Positions 6,884-63,329 of a DNA stretch of 64,000 nt are shown in pieces. The notes under the pieces are model-generated. The model saw nothing but the letters and a program-made list of their open reading frames with translations, searched no databases and was not told where the DNA came from. Positions within the stretch are counted from its first letter, which is position 1. Every line of letters begins with the position of its first letter. The stretch is from a virus. Both the position numbers and the translations under genes were made by a program. The stretch is from the IMG/VR virus record IMGVR_UViG_3300037504_000888, positions 1 to 64,000 of that record. One strand, given 5' to 3'.

Positions 6884-7349
6884 GTGTGGTCTGATCGTCA
6901 TCGAGCGACGTATGGACGAGCACATCAACAATGGTTGGTGTGTCAGCCGCCAGAACCTGCATCAGATACGCAAGCTCGGCTACGACGTGCCTAGCCACTA
7001 CGGGTCGAGCATCCGAACCGTGCAGATGCTAGCCAGGTACGCCGGCATCAAACTAGAACGTGAGCCTGTGGACGCCCTCGACTATGGCAGAAACTTTACG
7101 GCTTGGGCCAAGAGGAAGACCGAACAGGGTCGCCCCATCGACCAGCGCTACGTGGTCAAGGACCTCTACGTGGCCCCCACGTGGCTCATCAAGCTCGCCG
7201 CGGCTTGGCGCCACCGCCGCGCCCGCGCACTCAATGGCAAGCCTGCGCCGTTCCCCAAGAAGGTCCTGGTCAAGCTGCCAGAGGCCGTCGACAATGAGCG
7301 TCTACAGCAGGCGCTGATAACCTCGTTGACTCTGAGGAGTAGGAAATGA
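6849..7349 (+). CDS. C2HC zinc-finger protein (paralogue 3)
   Basis: 166 residues. CPKCGLIVIERRMDEHI, then NGWCVSR, gives the C-x2-C-x11-H-x5-C layout seen in the two minus-strand paralogues at 4536-5658. A basic helical C-terminal part follows (AAAWRHRRARALNGK). The ATG lies within the preceding gene, so it is probably coupled. A DNA- or RNA-binding role is inferred. Confidence 0.75.
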   Translation: MGKKLPRAECPKCGLIVIERRMDEHINNGWCVSRQNLHQIRKLGYDVPSHYGSSIRTVQMLARYAGIKLEREPVDALDYGRNFTAWAKRKTEQGRPIDQRYVVKDLYVAPTWLIKLAAAWRHRRARALNGKPAPFPKKVLVKLPEAVDNERLQQALITSLTLRSRK

Positions 7350-7933
7350 AGACGGATTTGTCTGACTGGCTCGACGAGAAACGCAGTTTCTTGGTCTTCG
7401 TCCCTGACATCGAGATGAAGGAGGCGATGAAGAATGAACCCTACGTACTGCGCATTCACCTTCCTAGGATCTACTCGTTCCTCGAGGTCGTGCAGATTGA
7501 GAACCCGCTCGTTGGCATCAGCGCCCTGGGCATGGGTCCGCAGACGGCCTACGCGTTCTTGGTCGATCCCACCACCGAAGTGAATAGGCGCTTCTACATC
7601 ACCGCCATATTCCCGCACATGCACTTTCCTTGGGGTGACACGCGCGTGCGCTGCTCGCCTCGGGGCATCAGCACGCACAGCGGTGTGGCGCTGCTGCACG
7701 TCGAGACGAACGTTGAGCACGACGACTACGACTGGTTCGAGCGCAACATCCAGGAGATGGGCTACCGCCTCGTCGACGCCAAGCCCTACACTCAGAGCGC
7801 TGAGCTCGTGAACCTCTACAAGGCCAACCTGGAGGAGCTGCGTGGCAAGGTGGAAGAGCAAGTTCGACCACCGGGACCCGGTGTGGGTCAGCCGAGTGGC
7901 GAAGGCCCTGAAGGGTCAGATGAACCAGCGTGA
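7346..7933 (+). CDS. Hypothetical protein
   Basis: 195 residues starting in the stop of the previous gene (ATGA). A mixed alpha/beta domain of ~165 residues is followed by a Pro/Gly/Glu-rich tail (PPGPGVGQPSGEGPEGSDEPA region). The tail overlaps the next gene and is probably disordered. No family recognised. Confidence 0.75.
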   Translation: MKTDLSDWLDEKRSFLVFVPDIEMKEAMKNEPYVLRIHLPRIYSFLEVVQIENPLVGISALGMGPQTAYAFLVDPTTEVNRRFYITAIFPHMHFPWGDTRVRCSPRGISTHSGVALLHVETNVEHDDYDWFERNIQEMGYRLVDAKPYTQSAELVNLYKANLEELRGKVEEQVRPPGPGVGQPSGEGPEGSDEPA

Positions 7934-8162
7934 GCTCTACGAGGCCGAGCGCCTCACCGAAGAGTGGAAGAAGCAGTACGTCGACGACGACCGCGGGATG
8001 AAAGCGCTCGAGGTCGTCGACATGATGCGGCGGGGGCGCAGTGAGCCCCTGCCGGTGGACCACGTGACGCTTCACATCGGTGTGGACCATGCTGTAGTTT
8101 CAGAAAGTTCGACGGCCACCATAGCCGTCCCTCGAAAGGGCAACGATGCATCGGAATCATGA
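7842..8162 (+). CDS. Small hypothetical protein
   Basis: 106 residues. The GTG at 7842 is preceded by GGAGGAG at good spacing and was chosen as start, giving a 92-base overlap with the previous gene. A shorter form from the ATG at 7920 is possible. Charged helical N-terminal half. No known domain. Confidence 0.6.
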   Translation: MARWKSKFDHRDPVWVSRVAKALKGQMNQRELYEAERLTEEWKKQYVDDDRGMKALEVVDMMRRGRSEPLPVDHVTLHIGVDHAVVSESSTATIAVPRKGNDASES

Positions 8163-8436
8163 TCCCCAGCTTTGGATGGAGTCTGTCCCCAGGACCCCCA
8201 CAGCTACCCCTGAGAAGCCCCCGACCACCCTTTGGGACCCGGGGGCTTTGCTTTGTGCCGTGGTCGACGGCAGGCGCGTCTACGGCAAGGTCGCGTGTGT
8301 TGACCCGCACGTCGACTACGTGGTGGTTCGCTCCTACAACTTCAACGGGCACGAGCCCGTCAAGAGCACCTGGGCGGGTACCAGGGACCAGTTCCAGGCG
8401 ATGTGGATGTTCGCACGCCTCGAAGGCGCCGCTTGA
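8146..8436 (+). CDS. Small hypothetical protein, SH3-like pattern
   Basis: 96 residues; a Pro/Thr-rich N terminus is followed by a beta-rich core (GALLCAVVDGRRVYGKVACVD) reminiscent of small SH3-like barrels, though this is only a visual impression. The start overlaps the previous gene by 17 bases. Its stop lies in the loop of a GGCGCC-GCTTGAC-GGCGCC hairpin (8425-8443). Last protein gene before the tmRNA. Confidence 0.65.
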   Translation: MHRNHDPQLWMESVPRTPTATPEKPPTTLWDPGALLCAVVDGRRVYGKVACVDPHVDYVVVRSYNFNGHEPVKSTWAGTRDQFQAMWMFARLEGAA

Positions 8437-8521
8437 CGGCGCCTGCGTCCTGAGCGACGCTTCTATCAGGTCGGCGGCCTCGTGCCTTAATGGAGAACTG
8501 GCTCCTGCCGGCCGTACTTAC

Positions 8522-8890
8522 GGGCCTGACTGGTTTCGACGTGGAGGAATGGAAGTAGCTGCGAGCAGGCGGGGCTCACGCCGCCTTGACCCATGTGAGC
8601 AAACGGCAGTTGCCAACGACAACGCCAACCAGGCCGCGGCGTAAGACCCGCGACCCACCCCTAGCGAGGAGCTCGAGTAGCGACGGGGTGCCAGTACACG
8701 AGCTGAGCCTGCGCGGCGTGTCTCCGATGATGCAGGCGAGCTTACGGAGAGGCTGACTTCTCGGAAAGACGGGATGGTGGAGGCGGCACACCCCCAGTCG
8801 CCAATGACGCCGGGAAAGACCGGCTACGCTCGTGAACGAAGCTACTGACTGAACTCTGCGGACCGGAGTTCGATTCTCCGCAGGTCCACC
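8522..8890 (+). ncRNA. ssrA: tmRNA (ssrA)
   Basis: Rescues stalled ribosomes by acting first as alanyl-tRNA and then as template for a degradation tag. The 5' end GGGCCTGACTGGTTTCGACG pairs with 3' CAGGTCC: seven acceptor pairs including the G3-U70 wobble that alanyl-tRNA synthetase reads. The T arm is CGGAG-TTCGATT-CTCCG. P2 pairs AGTAGCT (8554-8560) with AGCTACT (8840-8846). The tag frame runs 8612-8644 and encodes ANDNANQAAA then TAA, close to the E. coli tag start ANDEN. The 3' end reads ACC-T, so the final A of CCA is not encoded. Its length of about 370 nt is typical. No smpB gene is in this window, so host SmpB is probably used. Confidence 0.93.
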
Positions 8891-9121
8891 TCTACTTTCT
8901 CAGCTCCCCCGTTGTCACATTCGGGGCAGGAAAAGTTGGACTGAGCATGCTGAGCTCTGCGAAGTCCCCTGGTCACGGGAGGTTGCAACGCCCGCGCGAC
9001 TCGGTGCGTGGTATCCGTGTCACCGTCCTTCTCGGTCTCTCGGATGCTCGAGCAGGCCCTGGGTGAAAACCGAGGGCACCACTCGAGTAGCCCGGTCTTC
9101 TGGGATGGGCGGAAGTCGCGT

Positions 9122-9227
9122 CTGAACGTCTCAGCCTCGGGCGGCAAGGCCCGGGGCGAGTAGGTAACCCTGAGAGAGGCTTGCCCCTCTTGATGGGAGC
9201 GAAGTTCGAGTCCTCGCCGTTCAGGCC
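9122..9227 (+). ncRNA. tRNA-like fold with enlarged D arm (uncertain)
   Basis: CTGAACG (9122-9128) pairs perfectly with CGTTCAG (9218-9224), followed by GCC. Just before the 3' strand is a T-arm-like element CGAAG-TTCGAGT-CCTCG with one mismatch. TCAG/CTGA forms a D stem whose loop carries an extra 8-bp hairpin (9135-9156) and the classical AGTAGGTAA. The hairpin at 9174-9191 has loop CTTGCC, only 6 nt, containing TGC in anticodon position. Total ~103 nt is long for a tRNA. It may be a degenerate tRNA, part of a larger structured RNA, or chance. Bases 8891-9121 hold further paired segments (CTCGGT/ACCGAG, GCCCT/AGGGC) but no gene I can name. Confidence 0.35.
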
Positions 9228-9561
9228 GAAGCAGAGGCGGGGAACGTCCCGCCATCAAGGCCCTCGCCTCTGCTTCTACATCCTCGGCGAGACCGACCAC
9301 AACGTCGGCCTCGACCAACTCCAGGCGTTCACGGACGCCTGGCTCGGGTACTACGGCCAGTCCGACGAAGAAGAAGTAGAGTCGGTGCGACGACACCTCC
9401 AGGACCTACTTGCCCGAGCCCACCGCGATGGCGGTGGCGAGATCGCTCCCCTAGAAGAAGAAGCTGGGGGAGATACTGCACCACCTGGGACTGATAGTAG
9501 TAGGACCACCCCTACTACCCGGACGGATGGTGACAGTGCCTTCGCCTCTGCTTCTACTTAG
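9193..9561 (+). CDS. Hypothetical acidic protein, start uncertain
   Basis: At most 122 residues from the ATG at 9193. The convincing coding part begins near 9270 (LGETDHNVGLDQLQAFTDAWLG) and continues as an acidic helical segment with a Thr/Ser/Asp-rich tail. No good start lies close to that part, and the ATG at 9193 sits within the tRNA-like fold with only a weak GAGAGG upstream. A 16-bp direct repeat (9264-9279 and 9542-9557) brackets the coding part. Possibly a remnant or a recently inserted fragment. Confidence 0.45.
   Translation: MGAKFESSPFRPKQRRGTSRHQGPRLCFYILGETDHNVGLDQLQAFTDAWLGYYGQSDEEEVESVRRHLQDLLARAHRDGGGEIAPLEEEAGGDTAPPGTDSSRTTPTTRTDGDSAFASAST
9264..9557 (+). repeat. 16-bp direct repeat bracketing a small reading frame
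   Basis: TCGCCTCTGCTTCTAC occurs at 9264-9279 and 9542-9557, in different reading frames. GAAGCAGAGGCG at 9228-9239 is an inverted partner of the first copy, with a GGCGGGG-AACG-TCCCGCC hairpin (9236-9253) between them. The arrangement could be a duplication scar or a structured-RNA end. Confidence 0.5.
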
Positions 9562-9570
9562 CTCCAGATT

Positions 9571-10221
9571 TCAGGGGTTACTGGCTACACGGGCGTCGGT
9601 GGTGAAGACCTTGCGCATCTTAGCCTCGTAGAAGAGGGCTCGAGGCTTGGCGCCCTTCCAGGCGGGGTTGCGTGTGCCCGCGTAGCACATGAAGAGCTTC
9701 TTCGGTGCGGGCGAGTAGCAACGACTCAACTTGATGGCCGCTGCATGCGTGGCGTACCAGGTGGATGTGGCATCTGTGCCATCCATGACGTTCCAGTGCC
9801 TTCGGATGCCGCGATCGTACTGCATCTGGAAGATGGTGCGGGCAGCGAAGTAGCGACGAGTGATCTTTCCCGTCTTCGGGTTGCGTATGATGACTTCGTC
9901 GCACTCGCCTCGCGCCCAAACACCGGGCTCCTTCTGGTAGCCGGGGCGGCACTTGCCCTCATGGATGTGTTTGGCGAATCGGCTCTCCCAGAAGCCAGCT
10001 GTGACTAGGGCAATGGCTAGTGATTCACGAGAACCACGCCAGCGGGGCGTGCAGTCCTTTGTGTCGTACTTGCCTGAGCAGGTGAAGCGTGCGCTGACGT
10101 CAGCATTTGCTTCGGCGATTGTCGTCAACCGGTCTGTTCGCTCTTCGAGCGTCTCTTGGTCGGTGTAATAGGCAGGAAGAGAAAGAAGAAGGGCGAGGAT
10201 GGTTGCGATGAACTGTTCCAT
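9571..10221 (-). CDS. Secreted lytic-transglycosylase-like protein
   Basis: 216 residues from MEQFIATILALLLSLPAYY, a typical signal peptide. The mature part resembles lysozyme/transglycosylase folds: SLAIALVTAGFWESRFAKHI places a Glu where SLT and goose-type lysozymes carry their catalytic acid, and later segments (ARTIFQMQYDR; TWYATHAAAIKLSRC; FMCYAGTRNP) fit the remaining fold. Several cysteines may form disulfides after export. The start follows an extended -10 (TGT-TACAAG) by 6 nt without a Shine-Dalgarno, suggesting a leaderless mRNA. Likely cleaves peptidoglycan glycan strands; a pilin- or conjugation-type transglycosylase relationship is possible. Confidence 0.7.
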   Translation of the reverse strand: MEQFIATILALLLSLPAYYTDQETLEERTDRLTTIAEANADVSARFTCSGKYDTKDCTPRWRGSRESLAIALVTAGFWESRFAKHIHEGKCRPGYQKEPGVWARGECDEVIIRNPKTGKITRRYFAARTIFQMQYDRGIRRHWNVMDGTDATSTWYATHAAAIKLSRCYSPAPKKLFMCYAGTRNPAWKGAKPRALFYEAKMRKVFTTDARVASNP

Positions 10222-10244: not shown

Positions 10245-10297
10245 GTCGGACCACGCAAGATCTACTTGTTGAACGGTGGTCCGACAGGTTGTACAAC
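10245..10297 (+). promoter_or_regulatory. Promoter overlapped by a 10-bp inverted repeat
   Basis: TTGAAC (10269-10274), a 17-nt spacer and TACAAC (10292-10297) form a sigma70-like promoter for the gene at 10345. GTCGGACCAC (10245-10254) and GTGGTCCGAC (10276-10285) are perfect inverted repeats that embrace the -35 box, with 21 nt between arms. This fits an operator controlling one or both divergent genes. Confidence 0.5.
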
Positions 10298-10344
10298 TGC
10301 TTCACCGCCCGAGAACAACGTACCGGGCGAGAAGGAGAGATAAG

Positions 10345-11094
10345 ATGAACCACGGGTACAAGTACGGTATCCCCTACGGGGGTCAAGGCGACGAAAGCCG
10401 ACTGCAGCGAGCCTTCGATGCACACCAGGCTCAACACGAGTTCCGCCCGGGAGAAGGTCCGGAAGCAGAGAGGTTGCTCGAGCCCACCGTTCTGTATCGC
10501 TTGACGCTCAGCAACGGTGTGCTGGTCGAGCTTCTTCACCGCCGGCTCAAAGGCACTGACGACTCCGGCACCCTCGGCCTTCGCCTCACTCCTGAGGGTG
10601 ATGAGACAGGGGAGGTGAACCTTGAAGGCCTGGATCTTGAAGCGTTTCTTCTCATCGTCGACAAGCTGAAACCGTCATACATACATCCTGCAGAGAGACG
10701 CATCCGTACCAAGTCGGTCAAGACGCTCAAGAAGCATGAGGACCTAGGTCGGTCGAACAAGGACCTAGGCAAGGCCATGGCCCACGCGTTCGTGAATGAG
10801 GTGAGCAAGCTCAAAACGCCAGCCGACGTGAACATGGTGCCCATCGCCAGCGAAGAGGAGCACATGTCGGAGTATAGTCTGCGCTCGTGCGTCGGGGTGT
10901 CGAAAGCCGTCACCATTGACGGTGAGCGTTGGGTTGTGGACAAGGTTGCAAACAAGCTGAAGCTCACGCGTTTCGATACTACTGCAGACGCGGACCCCGA
11001 GACTGTGGTGATCGACGAGAAGGCGCTGCTGGCTGACGAGCCACTCGTCAACGTGGTGCGCCGTCACATCGCCGAGGCACGAAAGGCGAGTTGA
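10345..11094 (+). CDS. Hypothetical cytoplasmic protein
   Basis: 249 residues from MNHGYKYGIPYGG; GAAGGAGAG lies at ideal distance, so the longer upstream frame was discarded. Acidic with helical and beta segments, no membrane segment or known motif. It stands alone between a regulated promoter and a terminator-like hairpin, so it is probably a monocistronic gene with its own control. Confidence 0.8.
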   Translation: MNHGYKYGIPYGGQGDESRLQRAFDAHQAQHEFRPGEGPEAERLLEPTVLYRLTLSNGVLVELLHRRLKGTDDSGTLGLRLTPEGDETGEVNLEGLDLEAFLLIVDKLKPSYIHPAERRIRTKSVKTLKKHEDLGRSNKDLGKAMAHAFVNEVSKLKTPADVNMVPIASEEEHMSEYSLRSCVGVSKAVTIDGERWVVDKVANKLKLTRFDTTADADPETVVIDEKALLADEPLVNVVRRHIAEARKAS

Positions 11095-18148: not shown

Positions 18149-18789
18149 TTCACCTCTCCCAGGCGCCCAAAAGCGCGCCTGAATTCACGGAGGCAGTGGG
18201 CCTTCCGTCTCAGTTGTTGTGCCGGCGGCAGCCAGACAATTACGTTGGCATGTGTGGGCGAGGTACCGGGGACGACGGTGTCGTCCTCGATCTTGTTGAA
18301 GGGGATTCGGTCCCTAGGGACGCAGATGTACGTTTCCATGGGCACCACTTCACTCGGGAACATCTTGGCCCGGTACATCTGGGTGCGTTGCAGCAACTCG
18401 ATGCTGAACCCGATGAAGACAGCTTGCTGCACGGAGCCAGCGCCCCACAACTCGGCGAGGCGGAACCACCAGAGGCACATGGCGCTGTAGTGCTCCTCCG
18501 CCCTCTCTTCGGTGTCGGGGTAGATGAAGCCTTTGTTCTTCACCTTTACGACGCGTTTGCCGTTGCCGTCGCAGTAGCCCCCGGGCGGGTTGAGGAAGAC
18601 GCGCCCCTTCCAGGTCTTCGTGAAGCCGTTCTGGGCCTCGGTGTAGAACTTCTTGGCCCGGACCGCCTCGTTGAATAGCGCGCTCGAGGCGGGGTCCAGG
18701 TCGATATCACCCATCAGAAGCTTGGAACAGAGAGCAATCTCTCGTGGGGTACCATGCTCGGCCGTCTCCGAGCTGTGCTGAGCGATCAC
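18145..18789 (-). CDS. Dam-type phage DNA N6-adenine methyltransferase
   Basis: 214 residues from the GTG at 18789, preferred because GGAAGGG precedes it and it overlaps the upstream stop (GTGA); a GTG at 18822 is possible. HGTPREIALCSKLLMGDIDLDPASS is the typical opening of the phage Dam family, and FLNPPGG is its NPPG/Y catalytic motif. It should transfer methyl from S-adenosylmethionine to adenine, perhaps shielding phage DNA from restriction. Near its end PPAQQL is encoded by a variant of the repeated GGCAYAAC motif. Confidence 0.85.
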   Translation of the reverse strand: MIAQHSSETAEHGTPREIALCSKLLMGDIDLDPASSALFNEAVRAKKFYTEAQNGFTKTWKGRVFLNPPGGYCDGNGKRVVKVKNKGFIYPDTEERAEEHYSAMCLWWFRLAELWGAGSVQQAVFIGFSIELLQRTQMYRAKMFPSEVVPMETYICVPRDRIPFNKIEDDTVVPGTSPTHANVIVWLPPAQQLRRKAHCLREFRRAFGRLGEVK

Positions 18790-42908: not shown

Positions 42909-45785
42909 ATGTCCGAGTGGGACTCCTTTTTCAAACACGCTCGCGTCAAGACGAAGCTGAAGTCCCATCAGGAGCGCGTCGTCGAGCGTATGAAGAGCGA
43001 AGACCAGCCGGGGTTGGTCGTCGCTCATGGGCTTGGTAGCGGCAAGACGCTCACGTCCATTGCTACGCAGGACGCCCTGGGCTTGCCCGCTACGGTGGCC
43101 GTCCCAGCGGCGCTGCAAGCGAACTACCGCAAGGAGATGGACAAGCACCTCGAAGGCACCAGCCCTGAGGCGTCCTTGACTACCTTGCAGCGCATCAGCC
43201 GCGCCGGCGACATCGGCCACGCCAACCCCATGTTGGTGGTCGACGAAGCCCACAAGGCCCGTGAGATCAACACGAAGACGTACAAGGCGTTGAAGAAGGG
43301 TATTGAGAATACCGACAAGCGGCTGCTACTCACCGCCAGCCCCTTCTACAACCGGCCGAACGACATCGCCCCACTCGTAAACCTGGCCGCCGGCGAGACC
43401 GTCCTCGAGGCGCACCCGACGGACTTCAAGAAGAAGTACGTCAAGGAGCGCGTCATCAAGCCAGGGCTCATCGGCAAGTACGTCAAGGGCGCGCAGCCCG
43501 GTGTTGTCGAGGAGCTGAATCCCAAACAGAAGGCGTTCCTCGAGGGCACCTTCCGTAAGTGGGTCGACTACCACCCGAACTCGACTGAGGGCTTCCCCGA
43601 GGTGAAGCGGCAGCAGGTCGAGGTGCCGATGACGCAGCGCCAGCTTCAGGCGTACGACGCCATGATGGGTACGGCGCCGCCCTGGCTGGCACACAAGGTG
43701 AAGAAGGGCCTGCCACCCAGCAAGCAGGAGTCGAAGGAGCTCAACGCATTCATGAGTGCGGTGCGGCAGATCTCGAACACCACCCGTGGCTTCTCTCCTG
43801 AGGAGAAGCCGCAGGAGCCGAAGATCGAGACCGCCTTCAACCGCATGCAGGACACGCTGAAGAAGGACGAGGATGCCAAGGGGGTCGTCTACTCGAACTT
43901 CCTCGAGTCGGGGCTCAAGCCCTACAAGGAACGGCTGCAGAAAGCCAACATTCCGTTCGGTGAGTTTACCGGCGATATGAAGAAGAAAGAGCGTGACCAG
44001 CTCGTTCGGGACTACAACGAGGGTAAGAAGAAGGTCCTGCTCCTCAGTTCCGCCGGTGGTGAGGGGCTTGACCTAAAAGGCACACGGCTCATGCAGGTCA
44101 TGGAGCCGCACTGGAATGCGGAGAAGCTCAAGCAGGTGGAAGGCCGCGGGATTCGCTTCAAGAGCCATGACCACCTGCCTCCGGAGAAGCGCAACGTCAC
44201 AGTGGAGAACTACCTGGCGACGCGGCCTCCACGGAAGGGGCTCTCGAAGCTGGTGCTAGGCAAGGATAGCGGCGGCAGTTCCGACCAGTACCTACGGCAA
44301 ATGAGCGAGGACAAAGAGAAGCTCATCAAGCAGTTCAGGAGCCTCATGGAAGACGACCAGGAGAAGACCTCTGCGGCGACCAAGTTGGTGAGCCCAGACC
44401 TCTTGGCGCTGCCACATAAATACGACCTGACACCAGGAAGTAGCTCCGCGAAGAAGGTAGATCACATTGCTGAGGAGTTTGGAGAGTCCGGCTACGACAT
44501 GGAACGACCACCGCTGGTGGGGTACGAGGTGGCGCCCGATGACATCCAGCTACTTGATGGAGGGCACCGCGCTCAAGCAGCTCAACGGGCGGGCATTGAC
44601 GTGCCCGTGCTGGTGAAGTCTCGAGACGCTATGCTAGCGGCACGTGACACCCCCGAGTGGGAGGCGTTTGGGCACACCGACACCCCAGCCAAGGATCTGT
44701 TGAGCGATGGGAAGACAACTATGAACGCAGCCGACATCGTCAAGGAAGCCAAGACCCTCGGCGGCTTCTACAAGGGCAAACCGAGTTCTCCCGACACGGT
44801 GAAGAAGACCGTGGAGTTTCAGGGCCTGAAGATCAAGGTGGATCGCCCCAAGGGGTTCATCATGTTCGGTGAGGACTCCAAGGGAGAGGAGTGGAAACGC
44901 AAGTACAAGGTCGACTACGGCTTCATTCCCAAGACCGTGGGCGGCGACGGTGATGGACTCGACGTCTTCATTGGACCGAACAAGAAGAGCAAGAAGGCGT
45001 TCTGGGCCGTACAACGGAAAGACGATGGCACCTTTGACGAGTACAAGGTCTTCGTCGGCTTCGACAACCGCGACGAGGCGGTGGCTTGCTATCGGGCGCA
45101 CATCCCGAAGAAGTACTTCGGGAGGATGATCACTATGACGGTGGAGATGATGAAGGCAATGCTGGGGACCAACCCTGACGAGGTCGTTGAGGGTGTAAAG
45201 ACAGCGGAGTGGGCTGGCTTTTTCGACGAGGTAAACAAGCTAGCCGCGCTGGTTCTCCCAAACAAGGCTCGGGGCTTCATGGGGCGTGCTGACGAGCTTT
45301 TGCAAGGGGGACGGGTGGGCAAGTTGAAGGACGTAGCAGAAGAGGCCGTGCGTACCGCCAGGCTGGTTGACCCCTCTACACAGGGAGGGGAGGCTGAGAT
45401 CATGCGACGGGCGTTCGAAAACGTCGCCAACAAGGCCAAGAAGGAGAGCAGGTCTGAGGCACGCAAGGTGCTTGGTGCCCGCGCGGGCCTAACTACCGCC
45501 GTTGCGGGCACCGGTGTGGGTGCAGGTGTCGGCGGTGGGATGCTTCTCAAGAAGAAGCTGCAACCTGGGGAGAAGACGGTGGAGGCTGCTTCCAAGTTGG
45601 CCGACTCCAGCGTCTTCATGGACGACCCTCGCATGGCGCAGCAGATGGCTATGATGCGTCGGCAGCAAGGCCACCCCGGCATGCCCCCGCCCATCACCAA
45701 CCTCAAGCACCCTGGTAACAAGCACCTGAAGCTGGCGTTGCTCGAAGCCGCTATTCAGGGCACGGCGGGAGTCGGGAGTGTCTGA
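42909..45785 (+). CDS. Polyvalent-type protein: SF2 helicase, ParB-like, pyrophosphatase-like
   Basis: 958 residues with several domains. Residues ~15-450: SF2/SNF2 helicase with GLGSGKT (Walker A), VVDEAHKAR, LTASPFYN, SSAGGEGLDLKGT and QVEGRGIRF. Residues ~540-590: ParB/sulfiredoxin-like LLDGGHRAQAAQRAG. Residues ~640-760: a domain with YKVDYGFIPKTVGGDGDGLDVFIGP, resembling the inorganic-pyrophosphatase-like domain of polyvalent proteins. A Gly-zipper hydrophobic stretch (TTAVAGTGVGAGVGGG) lies near 850, a basic tail at the end. Known polyvalent proteins are packaged and injected to protect incoming DNA; its place among tail genes suggests the same here. Confidence 0.82.
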   Translation: MSEWDSFFKHARVKTKLKSHQERVVERMKSEDQPGLVVAHGLGSGKTLTSIATQDALGLPATVAVPAALQANYRKEMDKHLEGTSPEASLTTLQRISRAGDIGHANPMLVVDEAHKAREINTKTYKALKKGIENTDKRLLLTASPFYNRPNDIAPLVNLAAGETVLEAHPTDFKKKYVKERVIKPGLIGKYVKGAQPGVVEELNPKQKAFLEGTFRKWVDYHPNSTEGFPEVKRQQVEVPMTQRQLQAYDAMMGTAPPWLAHKVKKGLPPSKQESKELNAFMSAVRQISNTTRGFSPEEKPQEPKIETAFNRMQDTLKKDEDAKGVVYSNFLESGLKPYKERLQKANIPFGEFTGDMKKKERDQLVRDYNEGKKKVLLLSSAGGEGLDLKGTRLMQVMEPHWNAEKLKQVEGRGIRFKSHDHLPPEKRNVTVENYLATRPPRKGLSKLVLGKDSGGSSDQYLRQMSEDKEKLIKQFRSLMEDDQEKTSAATKLVSPDLLALPHKYDLTPGSSSAKKVDHIAEEFGESGYDMERPPLVGYEVAPDDIQLLDGGHRAQAAQRAGIDVPVLVKSRDAMLAARDTPEWEAFGHTDTPAKDLLSDGKTTMNAADIVKEAKTLGGFYKGKPSSPDTVKKTVEFQGLKIKVDRPKGFIMFGEDSKGEEWKRKYKVDYGFIPKTVGGDGDGLDVFIGPNKKSKKAFWAVQRKDDGTFDEYKVFVGFDNRDEAVACYRAHIPKKYFGRMITMTVEMMKAMLGTNPDEVVEGVKTAEWAGFFDEVNKLAALVLPNKARGFMGRADELLQGGRVGKLKDVAEEAVRTARLVDPSTQGGEAEIMRRAFENVANKAKKESRSEARKVLGARAGLTTAVAGTGVGAGVGGGMLLKKKLQPGEKTVEAASKLADSSVFMDDPRMAQQMAMMRRQQGHPGMPPPITNLKHPGNKHLKLALLEAAIQGTAGVGSV

Positions 45786-60242: not shown

Positions 60243-60558
60243 TCTTCTTGAGCTCCTTCTTGAGTAGGGGGGACATGGAGAAGGATACCGCAAAGTAGGC
60301 GTCGACGTAGCGTTTGTACTTCACGTCGGGGTTGTGTTTGCTCGCCAGCTCGAACATCTTCTTGCGCTTGACCTTGGTGACAGTGACTTGTCCCAGCCGA
60401 GGAAGAGCGACGGTGCCCTCCTCGACCAAGGTTTCGCGAGCAGCCTCGATGAACAACTTGGTGATGAGCGATACGCTCTTTCGGTCCATGCCAAGCTGTG
60501 CGGCGACGCGACTGTCTAGAACGAGCTTGGTTCTTTGGCTGTGGTTCTGGTCTCTCAC
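60220..60558 (-). CDS. HU/IHF-like DNA-binding protein
   Basis: 112 residues from GTG overlapping the polymerase stop. SRVAAQLGMDRKSVSLITKLFIEAARETLVEEG followed by VALPRLGQVTVTKVKRKK reproduces the helix-helix-strand layout and the G-x-F/V arm start of HU/IHF proteins. The arm sequence RYVDAYFAVSFSMSPLLKKEL is shortened compared with HU. It should bend or coat phage DNA. Confidence 0.75.
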   Translation of the reverse strand: MRDQNHSQRTKLVLDSRVAAQLGMDRKSVSLITKLFIEAARETLVEEGTVALPRLGQVTVTKVKRKKMFELASKHNPDVKYKRYVDAYFAVSFSMSPLLKKELKKNGKARSR

Positions 60559-63285
60559 TTGGCCTCACCCCAGGAATCTCCGACGCCCGCTTCGGCCTCC
60601 ATGGGACAGGCAAGCTCGATGGGGAACGGGTAGGTCATGATCTCCTCGATGTCCTGCTTTGCGTCCTCAACGTGTTCTGCTGGCACCTCGAAGACCAGCT
60701 CGTCGTGGACCTGCAGCACGATGTGGCAGTCGTACCGTTTATCTAGTCCGTAGGCGGCGAGGTTGAGCTGAGCCATGCGACAGACATCCGCGGCCGAACC
60801 TTGGATCTGGGTATTTACCGCCAAGCGCTCACCCAGGGCCTGCTGGTCCTTGCGGTTGCTGTCGATCATGGGAATGTTGCGGCGGCGGCCCATCACGGTG
60901 AAGGCGTATCCGTACTTCTTGCCCTCCTCGATGGCCTCCTTCATGAACCGCTCAACGGCAGGGTAAGTCTTCTTGTACTGTTCGATCTTGGCAATGGCGA
61001 CGTCCTTGTCGACGCCGAGGTCTCTCGCCAACTTGCCAGGACCCATACCGTAGTTCAACGTGTTGTTCCCGAGTTTCCCCGGGCACTGACTATACCTTCG
61101 CTCTTGATTCCTTACAGGTGGAGCAATGAACTCCACGAGGCCCAGTGGGCTGGAAACTCGAACTGCAACTGGCACACTGCCGCGGTTTGAACCGAATCCT
61201 TTTCGGCAGGTTGTTCGCACAACCATGCTCGACCTGGTGGCACCGTTTGCACAGTACTTCCAGGTTGTTCGGGTCAGAGTTCCTCCGGTTTCCGTCCTTG
61301 TGATGGACGAGTACCGCGAAACGTCCGCAGCGAAGGCAGCGATCACCGTGAGCGGTAAACGCAACCTTCTTGTAGTAGTCCGGCGAGGGGCCACCCTTCC
61401 AGGCGTTGTTGTTCGCGCCCTTCTGATTGTAGCCCTTGCGTTCGTACGTGGCGTGCCAGCGTTGCTTGCAAGATTCGAGATGATGTGCACGTCGGCATGG
61501 GGGACACCGTTTACAGTTCGCACCCGTCGGGATGAACTGTTCACCGCATCGGCTACATGTTTTTTCTTTCCGTTGAACATGTCCCATTCCTATGCGCATA
61601 CTCAAGAGTGCCTGCCGTGTCAACGAGGGAGCGGGAGTGACTACCCTGCGCTGAAGCGCCCCACGTTGAGGGGGCCGTCGCCCCCAAGTCGATACACTAC
61701 CCAGAACGGTGGGCAGCACGGGATTGTCTTAGGCAGCGAGCCCGTAGAGTTCCCCGTTTTGAGCAGGTTTTACTTCGGCCTGACTGGTAGGTTGACCGAA
61801 GCCGATGTTCTTGGCGTCAGAACGGTAGGCCGCGTGGTCCACCAGGTACTCCAACAGGTTGGCTCCGGCACGTTGGGTGATGCCGGGGCTCAACTCTTCC
61901 GCCTTCATGGCGAGATCGGCGGGGTCCATCGACGCAGCGTCCTTGCTGAGTTTCTTGCCGGCAGCGACGTCCTCGTAGATGGTGTCGTACATCAGCGCGG
62001 CGTTGCCGGAGTGGATATCCCAGCTCCGTAGGAAGATGTCGATCATCGGTTTCTCCATGGCGGCAGCTGCCAGGAGTCGCATCTCCAGCTGCGAGTAGTC
62101 TGCTGCGATTACCTTCCAACCAGGCTCGGTGATGAATGCACTGCGCAAGTTCCAGTGGTCATTCTCCGGGCGCGGGATGTTCTGGAGGTTCGGGTCGCTC
62201 GAGCTCAATCTTCCCGTCCTGGCGACGTCCTGATTGAAGTTCGAGTGGATACGGTCGTAGGGGTCGAGTAGCTCATGCAGGCCGTCTATGTATGTGCCAA
62301 GCAGCTTCGTGTACTCGCGGTGCTCCAGGATGAGCGCTGCTACCGGATCGTGGTTCTTGTAGTACTCGAGGAAGGGCTCATTGCACTGAGGTTTTCGGAC
62401 GCCGCTCTTACCGCCGCTCGTCATCGATAGTGGAGTGAGGTTCGCGATCTCGAAGAAGTACCTCTGCAGCTGCGGAGTACTTTTGGGGTTGAGCATGAAG
62501 CCTGCCTCACGAACGATGTCGCGCTCGATCTGTCGAATCTTGGCGTGCGCTTCGGGACGGGCTGCCTCGAACTGCGCGCGGTTGACTTTGATGCCACGCC
62601 GCTCCATTGCCCACAGCGCCTTGGTGTAAGGCACCTCGACGCGCTCGAAGAAGTCCCAGAGTGTTGAGATGTAGGGTGGGACGTTCGTGAACAGCGAGTA
62701 GGTGTACTCACCCTGCAGCGTTTGTTTGAGCGACTCCCAGCACTTCAGAGTGCCCCAGGCGTCGTTGGCGGCGTACTCTACCAGCAGGTCGAAGTTTTCC
62801 CGCTCGGCGCGCATGATGACCTCTTCTGCGCTTTGCTTCTTGCCGATCCTCCCGAACGTGTCCTCGAAGTCGGCCCAGGTCCATCCGAGGATGTGGTTGG
62901 CGATGAACTTGAGCTTGTGAGGCTTGTCCTCGTACAACAGCGCATGCATCACCTGTACGTCGTGCCAGTCGCCGGTGATGTTGAGGCCGTAGTTCGCCAG
63001 CATGTGCATGTCGAATTTGGCGTTAGCAAGAATCCAGGTCTTCGATGGGTCGGCGAACGCCCTCTGGCAATGAACGAGCACATCCGCTCGTAACGTCGCT
63101 CGGCTGTTGCCCCAAGCAACTGACCAGTAGAGAGGTACGTCGCCCCACTTACTGAGGCCCGTTGTCTCGGTGTCGATGGCGATGTGCTTCTCGCCCTCGA
63201 TGGCGTTGACTAGGTACTGGATCTGGTCGTGAGTAGAGTCCCTCGACACGTACAGCGTGTCGGGCATATCGATGTTCCAGCTCAT
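60555..63285 (-). CDS. Family A DNA polymerase, split by a group I intron
   Basis: Exons 61795-63285 and 60555-61058 join to 664 residues (497 + 167). Exon 1 has the 3'-5' exonuclease motifs DTE (38-40), NAKFDMHM (88-95) and YAAND (171-175), polymerase motif A DYSQLEMR (396-403) and the first half of motif B (RSDAKNIGFG, 488-497). Exon 2 continues LNYGMGPGKLARDLG and carries motif C HDE (615-617). No 5'-3' exonuclease domain. The ATG at 63285 has GGAGGTGGA upstream. An insertion of ~45 residues lies between DIHS and motif B. It replicates the phage genome; splicing is needed for activity. Confidence 0.93.
61059..61794 (-). mobile_element. Group I intron in the polymerase gene
   Basis: 736 nt. 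Exon 1 ends CTTCGGT, which pairs fully with the internal guide GCCGAAG (61773-61779 read on minus), with the U-G wobble at the splice site. Core segments are AAAACGGGGAACTC (61747-61760) and AGACAATCCCGTGC (61716-61729), nearly the same as in the T4 td intron, and AAGGTATAGTC near 61088-61098. The intron ends in G (61059), and the joined exons restore polymerase motif B. An HNH endonuclease is encoded inside. Confidence 0.92.
61090..61587 (-). CDS. HNH homing endonuclease of the intron
   Basis: 165 residues from MGHVQRKEKTC; a Met 12 nt upstream (61599) is an alternative. The N-terminal CSRCGEQF/CPPCRR is a zinc site, CLRCGRFAVLVHHKDGNRR with NLEVLCKRCHQ is the HNH nuclease core, and CASCSSSF/CSTCK is a second zinc site. 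It should cut intronless polymerase genes at the insertion site and promote spread. Its TAG stop lies inside the conserved core segment GGTATAGTC. A weak AGGA precedes the ATG. Confidence 0.88.
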   Translation of the reverse strand: MGHVQRKEKTCSRCGEQFIPTGANCKRCPPCRRAHHLESCKQRWHATYERKGYNQKGANNNAWKGGPSPDYYKKVAFTAHGDRCLRCGRFAVLVHHKDGNRRNSDPNNLEVLCKRCHQVEHGCANNLPKRIRFKPRQCASCSSSFQPTGPRGVHCSTCKESRAKV

Positions 63286-63306
63286 TCCACCTCCTATCGG
63301 GGAGGC

Positions 63307-63329
63307 CCGCCCCGGGTTCACCGGGGCGG
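63307..63329. terminator. GC-rich hairpin between Q-rich protein and polymerase
   Basis: CCGCCCCGG (63307-63315), loop GTTCA, CCGGGGCGG (63321-63329), placed after seven TAG codons and before the polymerase Shine-Dalgarno. No T-run, so it may be an attenuator, transcript end or translation-level control of the polymerase. Confidence 0.4.

Follow-up and report, generated by a model that had tools for sequence, protein, structure and literature searches.

In the tmRNA pathway, alanylation through the G3-U70 pair is followed by SmpB-guided entry into stalled ribosomes, tagging of the nascent chain and release. Phages may carry the gene themselves: one survey recovered tmRNAs in 402 of 18,146 phage genomes (PMC9004378), and a 2025 tmRNA database holds 79 unique, curated phage entries (PMC11915505). 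Mycobacteriophages Bxz1 and Wildcat and Bacillus phage G possess a complete ssrA comprising a tRNA-like domain, pseudoknots and a tag frame, and the tmRNA considered here is like them by description, although its tag, ANDNANQAAA, is new. Phage-borne tmRNA is already known as a kind, and the present gene is a further member. It also has all its structural parts in common with the bacterial standard form, represented here by an actinobacterial set, and its D-arm signature, TGACTGGTTTCGACGTGG, is shared with two Actinomycetota MAGs; the actinobacterial RNAs differ at acceptor pair 4:69 (G-C vs. C-G) and at the tag end (mostly LAA vs. AAA).

A Complete tmRNA Gene

The DNA analyzed (the window) is a stretch of 64,000 nucleotides from a phage record of 103,264 bp. 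A preliminary description had claimed a complete phage-encoded tmRNA with G3-U70, T arm, P2 and the tag ANDNANQAAA, and each of these is present. ARAGORN calls a one-piece gene at 8522-8890 (+) with the tag ANDNANQAAA*, and Rfam RF00023 matches 8522-8891 over the full model (1-374 of 374) with 100.6 bits (E 3.9e-38), well above the curated cut-off of 47 bits, so that the covariance check proposed in that description returned anything but a poor score. This value falls inside the range of the other phage tmRNAs found (77-137 bits), with sampled actinobacterial tmRNAs at 78-210 bits. By ARAGORN it is the sole tRNA or tmRNA gene in the window, and none occurs in the 39 kb of record beyond it. The thermodynamic fold surpasses shuffled sequence only moderately (z -2.1), as expected because pseudoknots are omitted from the calculation. 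The parts of the gene are the following.

8522..8891 (+): complete one-piece tmRNA gene (ssrA), encoded 3' end ACCU (ARAGORN, RF00023)
8522..8528 (+): acceptor stem, 5' strand GGGCCUG, with G3 at 8524 and C4 at 8525
8540..8566 (+): P2, 5' strand, segments 8540-8546, 8554-8560 and 8561-8566, partner 8828-8860
8567..8600 (+): PK1, helices 8567-8572/8581-8586 and 8574-8579/8595-8600
8608 (+): A86-equivalent, 4 nt upstream of the resume codon, assigned by sequence
8612..8644 (+): tag frame, resume codon GCC (8612), ANDNANQAAA, stop UAA (8642-8644)
8632-8655 (+): P5 hairpin, its loop containing the stop UAA
within 8656..8750 (+): PK2, S1 8656-8661/8685-8690 and S2 8670-8675/8699-8704
within 8656..8750 (+): PK3, S1 8707-8712/8732-8737 and S2 8721-8726/8745-8750
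8759..8802 (+): PK4-region hairpins 8759-8774 and 8782-8802, the second covarying with the tmRNA of IMGVR_UViG_3300028920_000002
8864..8880 (+): T arm CGGAG-UUCGAUU-CUCCG, perfect
8881..8887 (+): acceptor stem, 3' strand CAGGUCC, with G69 at 8884 and U70 at 8885
8888 (+): discriminator A, then CCU

The tRNA-like domain thus combines G3-U70 with a T arm and has no anticodon arm, P2 is interrupted into three paired segments, and PK2 and PK3 consist of two 6-bp helices apiece. The tag is ten codons long and opens on an alanine resume codon; the A86 whose equivalent precedes it is essential in Escherichia coli tmRNA (PMC2481249). Given that the 3' end is encoded as ACCU, CCA has to be completed post-transcriptionally with its terminal A.

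The tag itself, devoid of Tyr and Leu and ending in AAA, occurs in this exact form in no other viral contig searched. The suggestion that its end might identify the host by comparison did not hold up: of the 69 tags predicted in the sampled actinobacteria, 55 close with LAA and none with AAA, and AAA ends recur in other phage tmRNAs (ANDDYIRAAA in Bordetella phage PHB04; ANNNNHFAPVAAAA in a viral contig).

Genomic Context and Related Phages

The gene lies between 7346-7933 and 10276-11094, amid phage genes, and the record is syntenic with the viral contigs IMGVR_UViG_3300005683_000087 and IMGVR_UViG_3300028920_000002, in support of its phage origin. The proteins of the record include a baseplate J-like protein, an ATP-dependent DNA ligase, PolA, a RecA/UvsX-like recombinase, a primase, a DnaB-like helicase and a GpA-type terminase; at the DNA level it matches none of 50,697 records of known phages. 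A search for smpB elsewhere in the genome, as had been suggested, gave no PF01668 match across the 103-kb record, and the phage would therefore have to use host SmpB. No sigma-70 promoter-like site was found in 7900-9700, in a phage that encodes its own RNA polymerase, and no terminator-like site follows the tmRNA gene.

The viral contig with the most similar terminase, IMGVR_UViG_3300005683_000087 (66% identity), is largely syntenic with the record but has no tmRNA; the gene is therefore accessory and dispensable. IMGVR_UViG_3300028920_000002, a 187-kb phage whose PolA is 60% identical to that of the record, does carry one. The two tmRNAs are orthologous, with 71% identity across an alignment of 341 columns, and share the GGGCCUG acceptor and the ANDNA start of the tag, but they differ in the tag as a whole (ANDNATPALAVDKAA in the relative), and the relative's gene adjoins lysis genes. 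Across 50 helix pairs compared between them, 38 are the same, 5 changed on one side and 7 on both, and none is broken, in a comparison where helices were aligned manually, a procedure biased toward pairing, because MAFFT misaligns pseudoknots, and where PK2 and PK3, in which the relative's RNA differs, were left out of the count. Compensatory change accompanies the conservation of P2 and of the pseudoknots counted, and the T arm contributes two compensatory pairs. Seven both-sided changes with no broken pair indicate that the structure is under selection and, taken with the different tag, that the RNA is conserved even as its tag changes.

Several other features of the record deserve mention. 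Its RNA polymerase is a single-chain beta-beta' protein of 1858 aa (L007:103-5679, equal to record 83603-89179, outside the window), with Rpb2-type domains followed by Rpb1-type ones and an intact catalytic NADFDGD; it matches bacterial beta' chains with E 2.8e-95 and is conserved in IMGVR_UViG_3300005683_000087 (59%). PolA, at 60555-63321 (-), consists of two ORFs (61729-63321 and 60555-61580) with a stretch between them, and the PolA frame of IMGVR_UViG_3300028920_000002 has one internal TGA; the gene is possibly interrupted by an intron, or split. At 42909-45785 (+) a fusion of a SNF2-family helicase with an inorganic-pyrophosphatase-type domain is predicted, and a 998-aa protein (L007:16456-19452) bears intein splicing and LAGLIDADG domains. 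Downstream of the tmRNA, 8900-9290 holds no ORF that is convincingly coding, is more stably folded than shuffled sequence (z -3.6) and ends in a strong hairpin (about 9228-9277) without a T run; it is possibly a further structured RNA. A tRNA-like stretch at about 9150-9220 was dropped, as it matched neither ARAGORN nor the Rfam tRNA model.

Variation at Acceptor Pair 4:69

In the window tmRNA, acceptor pair 4:69 is C-G (C4 at 8525, G69 at 8884), whereas all 60 actinobacterial tmRNAs with a parsable acceptor, a bacterial comparison set drawn from one phylum, have G-C. Among relatives reached through the PolA or the SNF2-family helicase gene, the pair is C-G in four, U-A in one and G-C in three; with the window tmRNA included, six of nine depart from G-C, in small viral samples chosen without selection on the acceptor. 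A viral scan with positions 4-5 left open (25 contigs in 9 sequence clusters) returned non-G4 in five clusters, including a mixed one, with three of the non-G4 contigs lacking an ARAGORN call. C4-G69 is also found in the isolates Xanthomonas phages X1 and XacN1 and Stenotrophomonas phage QDWS359, and G4-C69 in phages PHB04 and Rb1. Since the swap is seen across one-piece and permuted forms, several independent swaps among phage tmRNAs appear likely from these sequences, small samples compared with no tree built. The literature searched makes no mention of it, which does not prove it unreported.

The pattern GGGCCTGAN{0,1}CTGGTTTCGACG had no match in genome contigs, a weak test given that its D-arm part is rare in bacteria (the D-arm search reached two genomes only); the sampled actinobacterial acceptors are therefore the better control. 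Six actinobacterial pattern matches without GGGG were checked, and none was a tmRNA. In two viral permuted tmRNA predictions (L012 and L032) the acceptor has G3-C70 in place of G3-U70. One actinobacterial genome (G367) has two tmRNA matches 2 kb apart (C23:16394-16743 and 18443-18775), of which the second is weak and not called by ARAGORN.

A tentative explanation, which we regard as possible but doubtful, is that phage tmRNAs have repeatedly and convergently exchanged G4-C69 for C4-G69 or U4-A69, with G3-U70 preserved, thereby escaping agents directed at the host version or tuning charging. Such agents might be, for example, an integrase directed at the 3' end of ssrA, recombination between the phage gene and its host counterpart, or a defence that targets the acceptor; the window tmRNA would be one case.

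Function and Alternative Readings

A phage-encoded, complete and structurally constrained tmRNA is best read as serving ribosome rescue. Very probably the RNA is functional, charged by host AlaRS and dependent on host SmpB in trans-translation, the gene being an accessory that spares ribosomes; as judged from sequence, every part found fits the established pathway. The charging, SmpB use, tagging, degradation and benefit that we infer would proceed as follows. Once transcribed, the RNA would be 3'-trimmed or CCA-repaired and charged by host AlaRS via G3-U70, and host SmpB and EF-Tu would deliver it to ribosomes stalled at broken mRNA ends. The nascent chain would gain alanine and then ANDNANQAAA, the ribosome being freed at UAA. 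The main ClpX determinant is Ala-Ala-COO-, and substitution of the antepenultimate Leu causes just a modest rise in KM (PMC7652416). The product, AANDNANQAAA-COOH, should thus still be degraded through its retained C-terminal Ala-Ala, probably less avidly because Ala replaces the antepenultimate Leu. During infection-time mRNA breakage, the gene would keep ribosomes available.

Two other readings were weighed. The RNA might act as a competitor, binding SmpB or ribosomes and blunting host trans-translation, or re-tagging proteins with a weak degron so that they escape degradation. A tag without Tyr and Leu that ends in AAA would suit this role, and the tmRNA of mycobacteriophage DS6A, reduced to the tRNA-like domain, does inhibit tmRNA (PMC4131195, PMC11915505). 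Yet a decoy needs that domain alone, whereas here the full reading frame, stop, pseudoknots and A86-equivalent are all retained, as is the C-terminal Ala-Ala (PMC7652416), and we consider this role improbable. Less probable still, and already disfavoured, is that the gene is a decaying passenger from a host chromosome, acquired for example via a prophage integrated at ssrA. The 3' ends of ssrA are often integration sites, several prophage ends were observed there, and the gene is sporadic, being absent from IMGVR_UViG_3300005683_000087; against this origin, no integrase occurs among the scanned ORFs of the record, the complete gene shows covariation with its IMGVR_UViG_3300028920_000002 ortholog without a broken pair, and C4-G69 is found in none of the 60 parsed actinobacterial tmRNAs.

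The window tmRNA is a structurally supported addition to the limited curated set of phage tmRNAs, and it documents a phage group that passes on a tmRNA gene as the tag changes. If valid over the full tmRNA database, the 4:69 swap would be a sequence mark dividing many phage from bacterial tmRNAs, and would provide a lead, open to testing, on the reason phages have the gene.
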